Made by a program: the position numbers and the translations under genes. Source: Alicyclobacillus sp. (GTDB lineage Bacteria > Bacillota > Bacilli > Alicyclobacillales > Alicyclobacillaceae). Taken from it: 64,000 nt of DNA. The DNA is taken from the NCBI GenBank assembly GCA_023511295.1, contig JAIMBT010000013.1, positions 1 through 64,000 on the forward strand. Direction: 5' to 3'. A model generated the notes under the pieces. It ran no database searches, was not told where the DNA came from, and saw only the letters and a list, made by a program, of their open reading frames with translations. Each line of letters opens with the position of its first letter. Within the stretch, counting starts at the first letter, position 1. Positions 2,587-8,084 of the stretch are shown piece by piece.

Positions 2587-4119
2587 GTGGCCCAACCCGC
2601 ACAAAGCCCCCCCGAGATGCCCCCGATTCGACGCGAGTTACAGCAGAATGTCGACTATCTGAACAAACTCCTCGGCATTGGACAAGGCCCCGGGCACAGC
2701 TGGGATATCATGGCCAAACCGTTCAGCTATGGCGGTTTCCAAATGATGTCCTACGTGTTGAACGGGTACTTTCTCACGATGAACGTCGTGCTGTTGATTG
2801 AAAACCTCCAGGCGGAGGTGAAAAACTTTCTCGATACGCACAGCGACGGCAACTACACCTTGCAGGAGCTCATCTCCTTTCTGAACACGCGCATCGCGTT
2901 CGTCCAGGTACAGTCTGTGACGAAGATGAGCGACGTGGTCCGCTTCATTTTGTCGGGCCCCATGGTGACGTTCATTGACGGGCTGGATGAGGCCCTCCTG
3001 ATTGATACCCGCATCTACCCCATGCGCTCCATCCAGGAATCGGAAGTGGAACGGGTGATTCGCGGTCCGCGCGACGGGTTCACGGAGACCATGTTGATGA
3101 ACACGGCACTGATTCGCCGTCGCTTGCGGGACCCGAGCTTGCGGGCTGAACTGATGCAGGTGGGTACGCGGTCCAAGACGGACGTCACGCTGATGTACAT
3201 CGAAGAGGTGACCAACCCGGCGGTTGTCAGCGACATCCGCAATCGGCTGCAGTCGATTGACGTCGATGGCGTCATCATGGCCGAACAGTCGGTGACCGAC
3301 CTGATTGGCCGCGTGAAATGGAACCCGTATCCACTTGTCCGCTACACGGAACGGCCGGACGTGGCTGCAACGGCGTTGGTCGAAGGGCACGTGGTCATTG
3401 TCGTGGACACGAGTCCAGAGGTGATCATCGCGCCGGTGACCTTGTTTCAGTTGCTGCAACACCCGGAAGAATACCACTCGTATCCGCTCGTCGGGACCGC
3501 GATGCGGTGGGTCATCCTGTTCTCGGCCCTGGTCAGTGTCCTGCTGCCCGGTTTGTTCTTGATGATGAACATCCACCCAGCGCACATGCCGAAGTGGATG
3601 GCGTTCTTTCACGCTCACCCGGGTACGATGCCGCTGTGGGTCGAACTCCTGATTGCCGAAGTGCTGCTGAACATCCTGCGCCTGGCGGTGATGAACGCGC
3701 CGACGATGATTGGGTCCATGGTCAGTATCGTCGCTGCCGTCATCTTCGGCCAGTTCGCTTCAAAGATTCAACTGCTGGAACCCGAGGTCCTCGTCTACAT
3801 GGCGCTCGTGATGGCCTGCCAGTTCGCGCTACCCTCTTTCGAACTGGCTTCGGCCAACCAGTTGGCGCGATGGTTCATCATCGTCGTCACCGAGATTGGC
3901 CGCGCGGTGGGCTACCCGTTCACGGCGTTTGTCATCTCCATCATCGTATGGGTGATCTTCCTCAGTTGCACCCGGTCGTTTGGCGTGCCGTACTTCTGGC
4001 CCCTCATTCCGTTTCAGTGGCGCAATGGGATGACCGAAGTGTTGTTGCGGCGTCCCACCTCGTCCATCCGTGGTCGTCCCTCCGTGCTGCACCCGCGGAT
4101 TCGCGCCCGCAAGGGGTAA
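2587..4119 (+). CDS. spoVAF: spore germination protein, GerA/SpoVAF family
   Basis: 510 residues, GTG start at 2587 after a strong SD (gagggaggag). The N-terminal half (about 1-290) is the soluble GerA domain with an intact RGPRDGF signature near 160. The C-terminal half has four to five hydrophobic segments between about 305 and 470. Length, the C-terminal RRP motif and overall sequence match SpoVAF better than the germinant-receptor A subunits. Such proteins sit in the inner spore membrane and act in germination together with the SpoVA channel. In Bacillus spoVAF ends the spoVA operon; here it stands alone between the tRNA cluster and spoVK, with a hairpin after its stop. Confidence 0.9.
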   Translation: MAQPAQSPPEMPPIRRELQQNVDYLNKLLGIGQGPGHSWDIMAKPFSYGGFQMMSYVLNGYFLTMNVVLLIENLQAEVKNFLDTHSDGNYTLQELISFLNTRIAFVQVQSVTKMSDVVRFILSGPMVTFIDGLDEALLIDTRIYPMRSIQESEVERVIRGPRDGFTETMLMNTALIRRRLRDPSLRAELMQVGTRSKTDVTLMYIEEVTNPAVVSDIRNRLQSIDVDGVIMAEQSVTDLIGRVKWNPYPLVRYTERPDVAATALVEGHVVIVVDTSPEVIIAPVTLFQLLQHPEEYHSYPLVGTAMRWVILFSALVSVLLPGLFLMMNIHPAHMPKWMAFFHAHPGTMPLWVELLIAEVLLNILRLAVMNAPTMIGSMVSIVAAVIFGQFASKIQLLEPEVLVYMALVMACQFALPSFELASANQLARWFIIVVTEIGRAVGYPFTAFVISIIVWVIFLSCTRSFGVPYFWPLIPFQWRNGMTEVLLRRPTSSIRGRPSVLHPRIRARKG

Positions 4120-4194: not shown

Positions 4195-4287
4195 TGACCT
4201 GTGGCATTGCGACTAGGCATTCACCCAGATTTGGCCTCGCGCATAGGTTATCGCACGAGCCGGATCATGCAGGTGAGGTGGTTGCTG

Positions 4288-5262
4288 ATGCCGACAGCTC
4301 CAAAGACCCCGGTTTCCAAATCCGACGTCCAGCGCGTCATCTCCCGCTATCGCGACGGGGAGTTGGCGCTGTCTGAAGCGCTCAAGTCACTCTCCGGTGC
4401 ACCGCTCCCCGAAGCGCCTGCGACGGCCCCAGCGATGAACAAGGAGCGGTTGCTGTCGATTTACGCGGAACTCGACCAACTGGTCGGGTTGGAAGAAGTA
4501 AAAGCCGTGGTGCGCGAGATCTTCGCACTCCTGTATATGCAGGACCGTCGCCAGGCCCTGCACCTTCGTGCGGAGCCCGTGGTTCTGCACATGGTCTTCA
4601 AGGGCAACCCAGGCACAGGGAAGACGACGGTCGCGAGGTTACTGGCCCAGATGTTCCACGAGTGTGGTTTGTTGGAAAAGGGCCATTTGGTGGAGGTGGA
4701 ACGGGCCGACTTGGTCGGCGAGTATATCGGCCACACCGCCCAGAAGACACGCGAGATGGTCAAGAAGGCGCTGGGCGGCGTCCTGTTCATTGACGAAGCG
4801 TACTCGCTCGCCCGCGGTGGCGAGCGTGATTTTGGCCGCGAAAGCATCGACGCGCTGGTCAAAGCGATGGAGGACTACCGGAATCAGTTCATCGCCATCA
4901 TTGCAGGGTACGCGCGGGAGATGGATTGGTTCCTCAGCACCAACCCGGGGCTGCCGAGTCGGTTTCCCATCCACCTTCAGTTTCCCGACTACAGTGTGGC
5001 GGACCTGTTGCGGATTGCCCGCAAAACCGCGGAGGACCGGCAATACACACTGAGCCCCGCGGCGGAGGCCAAGTTACGCCGGATTTTGGAGGCAGAGACC
5101 GAGCGACGGGCCACACCGGCGAACGCCCGCCTGGTCCGCAACTTGGTCGAGCACGCCATCCGGCTGCAGGCCGTCCGACTGTTCGACGCTCAGACGCTGA
5201 CGCGGCAGGCGGCTGTGACCCTGCAAGCAGAGGACTTTCGGTTGGAGGGGGATGCGCGGTGA
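4288..5262 (+). CDS. spoVK: stage V sporulation protein K, AAA+ ATPase
   Basis: 324 residues from ATG 4288, which has gaggtgg just upstream; an in-frame ATG at 4201 lacks an SD. CbxX/CfxQ-type AAA+ protein: Walker A GNPGTGKT near residue 110, Walker B VLFIDEA near 170, and an arginine-finger region (PGLPSRFP) near 230. SpoVK is needed in the mother cell for spore maturation in Bacillus. The order spoVK-hflX-ynbB-glnR-glnA is the Bacillus one, with three extra small genes inserted before hflX. The stop overlaps the GTPase start (GTGA). Confidence 0.93.
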   Translation: MPTAPKTPVSKSDVQRVISRYRDGELALSEALKSLSGAPLPEAPATAPAMNKERLLSIYAELDQLVGLEEVKAVVREIFALLYMQDRRQALHLRAEPVVLHMVFKGNPGTGKTTVARLLAQMFHECGLLEKGHLVEVERADLVGEYIGHTAQKTREMVKKALGGVLFIDEAYSLARGGERDFGRESIDALVKAMEDYRNQFIAIIAGYAREMDWFLSTNPGLPSRFPIHLQFPDYSVADLLRIARKTAEDRQYTLSPAAEAKLRRILEAETERRATPANARLVRNLVEHAIRLQAVRLFDAQTLTRQAAVTLQAEDFRLEGDAR

Positions 5263-5897
5263 GGCGGAGTCTCGTCATCGGCAGCGCGAATGTCGGCAAG
5301 ACCTTGTTCTGCATCCACTTTGCTCGATATCTGGGCCTGCGGCAACTTCGCTGGTTTGTCGAACAGGCAGACGGCACCACGGAACAGCGGCAACTGGCCG
5401 TGGAGGAAGCGGTGCGGCTTCTGTCCGGGCCGGCCGCGCACCGAACGCGGCAACTGCAGACCGTGTCGCTCGATGTGCCGCGCGGGAAGGTCAACCGGCA
5501 GGTGTTGCTGACGGACACCACCGGGTTGGCGGAGGGCATCCACACTGATCCTCTGTTGCGCGAGGCGATGGCGCAAACGCTTCAGGCGCTCGCGGAAGCG
5601 CAGGTGATCTTGCACATCGTGGATGCCGCTCGCATCGGTACATCCGCCGACAAGGCGGGAGACGTGGGCAGGGCGGCCCGGGCCGTGGGCTGGTCGCCGG
5701 TCGATGAGCAACTGGCAGACTATGGTCAGGCGGTTGGCGGCTACCTCATCCTCGCCAATAAGATGGATTTGCCCGGCGCCAAGCAGGGCTATCAATTTCT
5801 TCGCAAACGCTACTCGAAGCAGCGGGTGGTTCCCATCTCTGCCCTCACCGGAAGCGGGTTCCGGGAGGTGAGGCAGCATGTTTGGCGCTATGCCTGA
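5259..5897 (+). CDS. small GTP-binding protein
   Basis: 212 residues, GTG start overlapping the spoVK stop, SD ggaggggg at 5244-5251. All GTPase motifs are present: G1 GSANVGKT at residues 6-13, G3 DTTG, G4 ANKMD, G5 SAL. It belongs to the Era/Obg-like (TRAFAC) class with no extra C-terminal RNA-binding domain. It has no counterpart in the B. subtilis spoVK locus. Translational coupling with spoVK and the following membrane protein suggests a role connected to sporulation, but the function is unknown. Confidence 0.85.
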   Translation: MRRSLVIGSANVGKTLFCIHFARYLGLRQLRWFVEQADGTTEQRQLAVEEAVRLLSGPAAHRTRQLQTVSLDVPRGKVNRQVLLTDTTGLAEGIHTDPLLREAMAQTLQALAEAQVILHIVDAARIGTSADKAGDVGRAARAVGWSPVDEQLADYGQAVGGYLILANKMDLPGAKQGYQFLRKRYSKQRVVPISALTGSGFREVRQHVWRYA

Positions 5898-6507
5898 GTG
5901 GCTGATTCAGTTGCTCTCGATGACGTGTATCGGCCTCGTGATTCAGTGGGTCGACGACCACTTGGACCGCGCCTTTGACCTCTGCCGGGGCGAGCGGACC
6001 TTAGCGGTAAAGATGGGGAGGTCCTGTTTCGTCTACGGGGCGCTCCTCGCGGTCGTGGCCGTCTGTCTCGACGCCCCCATCGCCACGGCCCTGTTTCTGG
6101 GCAGCTACGCTGTCGGGATGATGTCGAACTGGACCGAGCGGATGCCGACGCGGCTTCCGGCCGGAATGGAGACCGTCCTCGCGGCTTTCCTCTCCGTCCT
6201 GCTGGCGGGTTGGCACACGACGGCATGGGCGTTGTGCTTCGCGGCCTGGGTCGACTGGCTGGATGACATCATCGACTACCGCAAGGACGGACCCGGAAAC
6301 ACTCGGAACTTGGCGCGGCGGATTGGCATCGTCGAAACGAGCGTCCTCGTGCTGCTGGCTCTGCTCGGCTGCGTGTGGCTCAACCCGGAGTGGACCTTGC
6401 TCGGGTTCGTGGCGTTTGCGGTGGTGACCGTCATCTCCGAGCTGACCACGGCGCGGCTGTGGACGGTGGACGAAGAAGGGGGAGAGGACGAAGATGGACC
6501 TCGGTAA
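5878..6507 (+). CDS. UbiA-like integral membrane protein
   Basis: 209 residues, about six membrane segments. The start (ATG 5878, or 5890) overlaps the GTPase gene. Two aspartate-rich motifs are conspicuous: DDHLDRAFD near residue 26, followed by ERT and KMG, and DDIIDYRKD near 127, followed by NTRNLARRIG. Their form and surroundings recall the two Mg-diphosphate-binding loops of UbiA prenyltransferases (NDxxDxxxD, and DxxGD followed by T-L-x-x-x-x-G). The protein is shorter than a typical UbiA enzyme (about 290), so it may be a reduced or diverged member. Possible substrate unknown. The stop overlaps the next gene. Confidence 0.75.
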   Translation: MFGAMPEWLIQLLSMTCIGLVIQWVDDHLDRAFDLCRGERTLAVKMGRSCFVYGALLAVVAVCLDAPIATALFLGSYAVGMMSNWTERMPTRLPAGMETVLAAFLSVLLAGWHTTAWALCFAAWVDWLDDIIDYRKDGPGNTRNLARRIGIVETSVLVLLALLGCVWLNPEWTLLGFVAFAVVTVISELTTARLWTVDEEGGEDEDGPR

Positions 6508-6703
6508 CGCCTGGCTGTGGTGGGCACTGGTGGGGCTCGGCGCACTCCTCTTCGGGTACGCGCTCGGCCGCCGCGTCGGATTTCGCCAAGGGTGCCGGCG
6601 CGGGACGGCCGAGGCGCCGCTGCGGCTCCGGCACCAGGCTCTGCGCTCGGGGCGTTGTCCCATCTGCGACCGCGCGCCGAACGCGTGGTACAATGGCCGT
6701 TAG
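6494..6703 (+). CDS. small membrane protein with C-terminal CxxC
   Basis: 69 residues, ATG 6494 with SD gggggagagga, overlapping the upstream gene by 14 bp. One N-terminal membrane helix (about 7-26), then a basic stretch and a C-terminal CPIC that could bind a metal. The family was not recognised. Operon position and SD argue that it is real. Confidence 0.6.
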   Translation: MDLGNAWLWWALVGLGALLFGYALGRRVGFRQGCRRGTAEAPLRLRHQALRSGRCPICDRAPNAWYNGR

Positions 6704-6752: not shown

Positions 6753-8084
6753 TTGGAACAAAGCCTGCAGGGCATCGTGGCCGTGCTGCGGCGGACCCCG
6801 GACGAGGGGGACGACGCGTTTACGGAACGGACCGCCGAGTTGATTGGTTTGTGCGAGGCGGCCGGCGCCGCAGTCCAGCGGGTGGTGACGCAGACGCGGG
6901 CGACAGCGGATCGGACGTTCTACGTGGGGTCTGGCAAGGTCGCAGAGATTGGGCAGGCGGTGGAGGCCACGGGGGCGGACGTGGCGGTATTTGATACCGA
7001 ACTGAGCCCTGGCCAGATACGCAACTTGGAGCGCGAACTGCCCTGTCGCGTGCTGGACCGGACGCAACTCATCCTCGACATCTTCGCACAGCGGGCGCGG
7101 TCGCGGGAAGGCATGCTGCAGGTGGAGATTGCCCAGCTACAGTACCTCCTGCCGCGCCTCACCGGAAAGGGCGTCGAGCTCTCCCGGCTCGGCGGCGGCA
7201 TCGGCACGCGCGGACCCGGCGAGACGAAATTGGAGATGGACCGGCGACGGATTCGCGAGCGCATCGGCCATCTACGGGCGCAGCTCGCCGAACTCGAGCG
7301 GCGTCGAGCGGTCCAGCGGGGACGGCGTCGCCGGACCACGCCGACGGTCGCGCTGGTCGGTTACACCAACGCCGGCAAGACGACGTTGCTTCAGCGCTGG
7401 ACAGACGACCGCGGTGTGCGTGGGACCGTGGAGGCGGGGCGAGATCGGCTGTTTGACACGCTCGATCCGTTGGCGCGTCGGGTCAAATCCGGCGCGACGG
7501 GGGAACTGGTGGTGCTTGATACCGTCGGCTTTGTGCAAAACTTGCCGCACCTCTTGGTGGACGCCTTTCGAGCCACGCTCGAGGAAGCCGCGTCGGTTGA
7601 TCTGATTGTGCATGTGGTGGACGCGTCGCACGTCACCAAGGAGCGGATGGAGACGACTTATCAGGTGCTCGGCGAAATTGGTGCGTTGGACCGGCCGGTA
7701 CTCACCTTTTACAACAAGGCGGACCTGGTCGATGCGGCGGCGCTGCCCGCGCCAGACGTTCAGGCGGCGGCGTCGCTGTACGGTTCGGCCCAGACCGGGA
7801 CGGGCATGGATGCTCTGTACCAGGCCGTGGACGAGCGGCTGGGGATGGACCGCGTCTCGCTGTGGCTCAGCACACGGCACGCCCTTGACGCCGAGGTCTG
7901 GTCGCAACTTGCGAAGTTCGGGCAAGTGGCCTCGGCGACGTCCAGCGAGGACGGCGCGACGCAGATTGAACTGCGGTTGGAGCGGCGCATTGTCGAACGG
8001 GTTCGGGCATGGCTCGGCGCGCAGTTTCCCGACGTTCGCGTGGAGGCGGACGAGCTCCCGGCAATGGACGCGAAGACGCGATAG
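6753..8084 (+). CDS. hflX: ribosome-associated GTPase HflX
   Basis: 443 residues from TTG 6753, chosen because GGGAGGCGG sits 5 nt upstream; an ATG at 6693 has no SD. N-terminal HflX domain with FYVGSGK, then the glycine-rich GGGIGTRGPGETK linker and a GTPase domain with GYTNAGKT (G1), DTVGF (G3) and NKAD (G4). HflX splits stalled ribosomes after stress. The position matches B. subtilis ynbA (hflX), directly upstream of ynbB. Confidence 0.95.
   Translation: MEQSLQGIVAVLRRTPDEGDDAFTERTAELIGLCEAAGAAVQRVVTQTRATADRTFYVGSGKVAEIGQAVEATGADVAVFDTELSPGQIRNLERELPCRVLDRTQLILDIFAQRARSREGMLQVEIAQLQYLLPRLTGKGVELSRLGGGIGTRGPGETKLEMDRRRIRERIGHLRAQLAELERRRAVQRGRRRRTTPTVALVGYTNAGKTTLLQRWTDDRGVRGTVEAGRDRLFDTLDPLARRVKSGATGELVVLDTVGFVQNLPHLLVDAFRATLEEAASVDLIVHVVDASHVTKERMETTYQVLGEIGALDRPVLTFYNKADLVDAAALPAPDVQAAASLYGSAQTGTGMDALYQAVDERLGMDRVSLWLSTRHALDAEVWSQLAKFGQVASATSSEDGATQIELRLERRIVERVRAWLGAQFPDVRVEADELPAMDAKTR

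Follow-up and report, generated by a model that had tools for sequence, protein, structure and literature searches.

Three tightly overlapping genes between spoVK and hflX were studied in a stretch of 64,000 nucleotides from Alicyclobacillus sp. (contig JAIMBT010000013.1 of assembly GCA_023511295.1; the window). They encode a small GTPase, a minimal UbiA-like membrane protein and a CxxC mini-protein. We propose, with a probability of about 50%, that this trio forms with SpoVK a sporulation module of the mother cell, and that its membrane protein binds a polyprenyl ligand. Taken by itself, a functional module of the three genes with spoVK is highly probable, and a polyprenyl (di)phosphate is the somewhat favored ligand. 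The conserved trio is found beside spoVK in about a quarter of the sampled spore formers (92 of 335 genomes with spoIVA) and seems to have gone unnoticed, probably since B. subtilis is without it. It offers a testable entry into how species other than the model organism handle cortex precursors at the forespore membrane.

The trio, spoVK and hflX are on the forward strand. The longest frame of spoVK, encoding an AAA+ ATPase, spans positions 4201–5262, with the true start probably at an ATG near 4288. Its product matched the NCBIfam model TIGR02881 with an E-value of 1.6e-118 and 394.5 bits, below the model cut-off of 422.95, and the domains AAA and AAA_lid_6 over their cut-offs. The GTPase gene (5259–5897, 212 amino acids, GTG start) overlaps spoVK by 4 nucleotides, the membrane protein gene (5878–6507, 209 amino acids) overlaps the GTPase gene by 20, and the CxxC gene (6494–6703, 69 amino acids) overlaps the latter by 14. 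This arrangement had been described in the original prediction, made from the sequence alone, and its coordinates and frames hold. Also present, as described there, are the two Asp motifs of the membrane protein, DDHLDRAFD (residues 26–34, positions 5953–5979) and DDIIDYRKD (residues 129–137, positions 6262–6288).

The link to sporulation is visible in the distribution of the genes. In a sample of 398 genomes from the phylum, 98 matched the family profile of the UbiA-like protein at E ≤ 0.001. Six of these genomes were excluded, because their only match was below 32 bits and in a frame of at least 310 residues, the size of a canonical UbiA. A strong UbiA-like relative was carried by 92 of the 398 genomes, the source genome included, and these belonged to 35 family codes. 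The spore-former marker spoIVA matched in 335 of the 398 genomes. The UbiA-like gene was found in 92 of these 335, versus none of the other 63, which gave no spoIVA match (Fisher 1.2e-8, calculated over genomes that are related and not independent samples). A strong spoVK match was present in 90 of the 91 other carriers, the exception being G249, an assembly of 110 contigs; many genomes with spoVK were without the trio. At the level of gene content, the trio is thus shown to be kept together and to be confined to genomes with the spore-former marker. The association with sporulation, suggested earlier from the motifs and the coupling to spoVK, is well supported by this co-occurrence. The original prediction had named as evidence against it the occurrence of the genes in non-sporulating relatives without spoVK; this was not observed, as no carrier was found among the genomes without a spoIVA match. 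The trio had also been said to be absent from the B. subtilis locus, which fits our results: none of the 15 other Bacilli in the phylum sample had the membrane protein, and in one of them (L220) hflX directly followed spoVK. B. subtilis-type loci, unlike the window, have spoVK without the three genes.

The trio and spoVK were closely linked in the carriers. The UbiA-like frame could be scored separately in 90 of the 91 other carriers; in L217 it shared one open frame with the GTPase. Both the GTPase and the CxxC gene were found in all 90 scored loci, and also in L217. Upstream and on the same strand, spoVK was found in 85 of the 90 loci, in 79 within 900 bp and in six at a distance of 3–9 kb. 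From the remaining five loci, three had less than 1.8 kb of upstream sequence before the contig end and two had spoVK elsewhere. SpoVK, the AAA+ chaperone of MurG in B. subtilis, is encoded as the direct operon partner of the trio in the window and in most carriers. Among closer relatives, the UbiA-like protein as query matched 35 of 61 genomes, its own included: 35 of 37 in the family of the window, 0 of 18 in the sister family and 0 of 6 others. The remaining two members of the family had spoVK and the beginning of the GTPase gene at a contig end. In 30 loci of the family, BLAST found spoVK, the GTPase and the membrane protein in all 30 and the CxxC gene in 29, and the 20-nucleotide overlap between the GTPase and membrane protein genes was kept in 30 of 30, the window's own included.

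A scan of the GTDB genome collection, limited by its search pattern, gave 39 loci, all with Bacillota-type titles. They came from Alicyclobacillus and Tumebacillus species and from Bacillota metagenome-assembled genomes, including one of the Sporomusaceae. Profile searches in these named loci found the GTPase in 38, the CxxC gene in 39 and spoVK in 37. In Tumebacillus flagellatus (L060) the operon was divided, with the UbiA-like and CxxC genes together after unrelated genes, and spoVK and the GTPase together on another contig. In L070 (L218 in the phylum survey), spoVK was ~7 kb upstream in the same genome. Three loci of one family code (L214, L215 and L216) had the GTPase and the UbiA-like gene 2.6–2.9 kb apart, and in L214 and L215 an apparent response regulator and histidine kinase, recognized by eye, lay between them.

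The membrane protein is, judging from profile comparisons, a remote UbiA relative, a distant variant rather than a canonical UbiA. It shares with the UbiA superfamily (PF01040; AfUbiA, 4TQ3–4TQ6) two Asp-rich motifs, each following a helix. We built a profile of 128 aligned rows, 38 from named relatives and 90 from the phylum survey, with some genomes included twice. Invariant in all 128 rows were D26, D30, D129 and D133, together with Y53, G80, M81 and E98, while D27 was kept in 125, D130 in 120, D137 in 102 and D34 in 97. Against the Pfam UbiA model, the window protein reached an E-value of 2.2e-7 and 30.9 bits, under the cut-off of 34.2. The same model was matched at E ≤ 0.01 by 33 of the 38 family members, the best with 1.4e-10. 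The 128-row profile aligned with 26 canonical UbiA sequences over 153 columns, collinear over both Asp motifs (probability 94.9, E 4.7e-8), with a score of 58.0 versus 20.2 for the reversed control. With a 10-row subset of the canonical sequences the match was weak (probability 35.8). The canonical set was assembled with L120 and L124 omitted by choice, and L116, L117 and L122 had no frame passing the filter. At E ≤ 0.01, the NCBIfam matches of the members were mostly MenA-type enzymes (26 of 38) and archaeal-lipid UbiA enzymes (14 of 38). A dedicated family for the protein was found neither in Pfam nor in NCBIfam, and a sequence search for solved relatives with the profile gave nothing significant (best 6m31, E 4.8).

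Several features set the protein apart from canonical UbiA. It has only ~190–220 residues, its first motif is followed by GxxTLA and fits the second half of the UbiA profile best, its two halves are far more alike than those of canonical UbiA, and it travels with a GTPase and a CxxC gene. A canonical UbiA truncated by a frameshift was ruled out, the relatives having the same length class and start, and a chance resemblance in two motifs was ruled out by the motif invariance and by reversed and permuted controls. Three canonical UbiA genes were found at other places in the source genome, and therefore the membrane protein is not the only UbiA relative of the cell.

The halves of the protein form an internal repeat. 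With hhalign, residues 14–87 (positions 5917–6138; helix, Asp motif, helix, helix) aligned with residues 117–191 (positions 6226–6450) over 74 columns, with a probability of 97.9, an E-value of 5.3e-13 and a score of 67.5. The reversed control scored 14.6 and the maximum of 40 column permutations was 13.8. Masking of motif 1 lowered the score to 24.4, still above the reversed and permuted controls, so that the motif itself accounts for much of the repeat signal. In the canonical UbiA set, the half-half score was at most 37.4, with an E-value of about 1e-5. The AlphaFold2 model of the protein (pLDDT 90.0, pTM 0.85) had seven long helices (residues 7–29, 49–64, 66–84, 95–110, 112–132, 151–168 and 170–190), in a 3+1+3 plan with the order of the UbiA transmembrane helices (TM) TM2–TM8. 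The nine transmembrane helices of UbiA were not all found, the counterparts of TM1 and TM9 being the missing ones. For AfUbiA, two pseudo-symmetric four-helix bundles have been described and an origin by duplication was proposed (PMC4106721). A seven-helix, two-repeat UbiA relative, be it ancestral or secondarily reduced, bears directly on this proposed origin of the UbiA fold.

With its invariant Asp of the catalytic type, and with MenA-type and archaeal-lipid UbiA enzymes as its best named NCBIfam relatives, the protein could also be a true prenyltransferase or a UbiA-type terpene-forming enzyme. It would then make a spore-specific isoprenoid (quinone-like, heme-like or a terpene), unlinked to wall precursors. 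We consider this unlikely. No biosynthetic genes travel along, the constant neighbors being an AAA+ chaperone, a GTPase and a CxxC anchor, and the model is without counterparts of TM1 and TM9. Further, the carrier genome G076 had no canonical UbiA match at all, so that a quinone pathway is no precondition for the UbiA-like gene.

The states of the locus are nested: spoVK only, spoVK with the GTPase, and all four genes. In the sister family, nine of 16 spoVK loci had the order spoVK-GTPase-hflX without the UbiA-like and CxxC genes, six had spoVK-hflX, and in one only spoVK was visible. Among 20 further spoVK loci, taken from the highest-ranking spoVK matches in genomes that lack the membrane protein, two, both of one family code, kept the GTPase. 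The original prediction had the trio inserted between spoVK and hflX, and this wording did not stand. An insertion peculiar to the window locus was ruled out by the spread of the gene set over 35 family codes, and the short spoVK-hflX locus looks more like the outcome of a loss. In a GTPase tree, for which 48 phylum rows were drawn at random and the rest dropped, the GTPase-only rows were on long branches. As their placement was unsure, we claim no direction of gain or loss from this tree.

In one relative, G011, the three genes have decayed jointly: the GTPase had lost G3 and G4, the membrane protein was without both Asp motifs and no CxxC gene was seen, with spoVK intact. This argues for a single function shared by the Asp motifs, the GTPase activity and the CxxC protein. 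It also bears on the idea of a pseudo-enzyme, in which the membrane protein no longer binds a ligand and serves as an anchor or scaffold recruiting the GTPase and SpoVK. The reduced size, the strict partnership with the GTPase and the loss of D34 or GxxTLA in some distant rows would suit a scaffold. However, a mere scaffold would not need D26, D30, D129, D133 and E98, all invariant in the 128 rows, and the loss of the Asp motifs coincides exactly with the decay of the GTPase motifs and of the CxxC gene. We therefore regard a scaffold without a ligand as improbable, to about the same degree as the isoprenoid enzyme.

The GTPase is, from its motifs and modeled structure, a lone Era-like TRAFAC G domain. 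It carries G1 (GSANVGKT), G3 (DTTG), G4 (NKMD) and G5 (SA), and matched Pfam MMR_HSR1 over the cut-off; a match to this domain was obtained for 16 of 16 GTPases. G3 and G4 were present in 91 of 91 GTPase loci and G1 in 85 of 91 best pieces; for five of the six others, G1 was found in another piece. In the model (pLDDT 87.3), the best Foldseek match was Era (3iev, E 3.3e-10), and the best solved relatives were the ribosome-associated Era, HflX and Obg. With these TRAFAC GTPases it shares the G motifs and the fold, but it is a single G domain of ~200 amino acids, without a KH, Obg or HflX domain, and is tied to a membrane protein. In three genomes (L097, L098 and L208), the GTPase was divided between two overlapping frames, and the break had the same position in the two that belong to one genus; it may be due to sequencing error, decay or a programmed frameshift. 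A housekeeping or ribosome-linked role of the trio, with its place next to spoVK a coincidence, is very unlikely: the ribosome-associated relatives of the GTPase point that way, as do L204, L218 and L219, in which the trio stays beside hflX with spoVK 6–9 kb away, but none of the 63 genomes that lack a spoIVA match has the membrane protein, and the GTPase stays with spoVK when the other two genes are lost and also when the operon is split.

The CxxC protein has a single hydrophobic helix, a GRRxGxxxGxxxG stretch and a CPxC motif, in the window CPIC (residues 55–58, positions 6656–6667). G25, G29, G33, C55 and C58 were invariant in 16 of 16 aligned relatives, and the CxxC motif was present in 90 of 91 loci. 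A Pfam search with the protein gave no significant match, including for a zinc or redox role of CPxC.

MurG acts on lipid I and makes lipid II. Work on B. subtilis has reported that SpoVK activates MurG at the surface of the forespore, in the service of cortex synthesis (PMC10659427). We propose that the UbiA-like protein would be located in the outer membrane of the forespore, its two Asp motifs facing the mother cell, and would bind a polyprenyl (di)phosphate via Mg2+, in a cavity that opens to the lipid. The open cavity is suggested by the missing equivalents of UbiA TM1 and TM9. Rv3806c is a membrane phosphoribosyltransferase using decaprenyl phosphate (PMC10994848). The enzyme is a member of the UbiA superfamily. 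In AfUbiA, the Asp motifs are cytoplasmic, and without TM9 the cavity would lie open to the bilayer (PMC4106721). The likeliest ligand would be the C55 carrier or else a wall precursor linked to it (lipid I/II), because of the reported activation of MurG by SpoVK. The GTPase may gate the handling of the carrier lipid together with SpoVK, and the CxxC protein may be a small, obligate partner of the UbiA-like protein, perhaps via a shared metal site. That the module acts in the cortex precursor pathway is a tentative assignment, held with some doubt. A rather speculative extension is that the UbiA-like protein represents the near-symmetric two-repeat core of the UbiA fold, as the duplication idea of the AfUbiA authors requires, and that spore formers use it to handle carrier lipid at the forespore membrane, gated by the GTPase. 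There it would control or feed the synthesis of lipid II by MurG once this is activated by SpoVK, and B. subtilis would have lost this layer of cortex formation.

In one divergent locus (L204), a gene of the undecaprenyl-phosphate translocase family (PF04018; L204:1701-2564) directly follows spoVK, with the trio several kb further. The trio was not described in the literature searched; the operons in figure 3A of PMC10659427, a source available in part, may include an earlier sighting. A UbiA gene is listed in the sporulation regulon of C. difficile, with no spoVK context in the available part of that source (PMC3789822).

Several observations weigh against a polyprenyl-binding sporulation module with SpoVK. 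D34 and the GxxTLA stretch were lost in several distant rows of the alignment. Foldseek ranked UbiA structures first for the model (probability 0.95), with an E-value of only 0.12, TM-scores of 0.39–0.41 and a root mean square deviation of 9.5. The Z-scores of VIA-align were at most 7.1 (isoprenoid synthases, UbiA), in the range of common helical arrangements, UbiA reaching 6.7 over 78 residues. The translocase neighbor of L204 was found in this locus alone among the loci searched. B. subtilis uses SpoVK without the trio, and hence MurG activation as such does not require the three genes. Finally, the sigma-E consensus was found upstream of spoVK in only one of 88 loci (shuffle mean 0.37). The spoVK gene of B. 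subtilis carries promoters for both sigma-E and sigma-K (PMC517825).

Many of the Foldseek and VIA-align rows for the model were filled by trans-isoprenyl diphosphate synthases (FPPS, GGPPS), which are likewise helical bundles with two DDxxD-type motifs. Unlike the UbiA-like protein, these enzymes are soluble and larger, and a sequence relationship is not part of the likeness. The resemblance to UbiA named in the original prediction is borne out by the sequence profiles, and with seven helices and these structural scores the UbiA fold is only partly supported by the model.

The spoVK gene was broken at one fixed point (profile position ~154) in eight of the 39 named loci (L036, L037, L049, L051, L052, L054, L055 and L071). 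A large serine recombinase gene was found directly before the 3′ half of spoVK in seven of the eight, and L049 had both halves, ~3 kb apart. The interruption resembles a skin-type element that would be removed by excision in the mother cell. Other sporulation genes are known to carry elements of this type (PMC5595907, PMC4191935), and none was reported for spoVK in the literature searched.

Outside the module, the window has hflX downstream of the trio (6753–8084, forward strand; TIGR03156, E 1.1e-123, over the cut-off), which we regard as neighborhood context, and beyond it a methionine gamma-lyase-like gene. Upstream of spoVK there is a gerA-type germination gene (2587–4119), preceded by a cluster of nine tRNAs (1494–2417).

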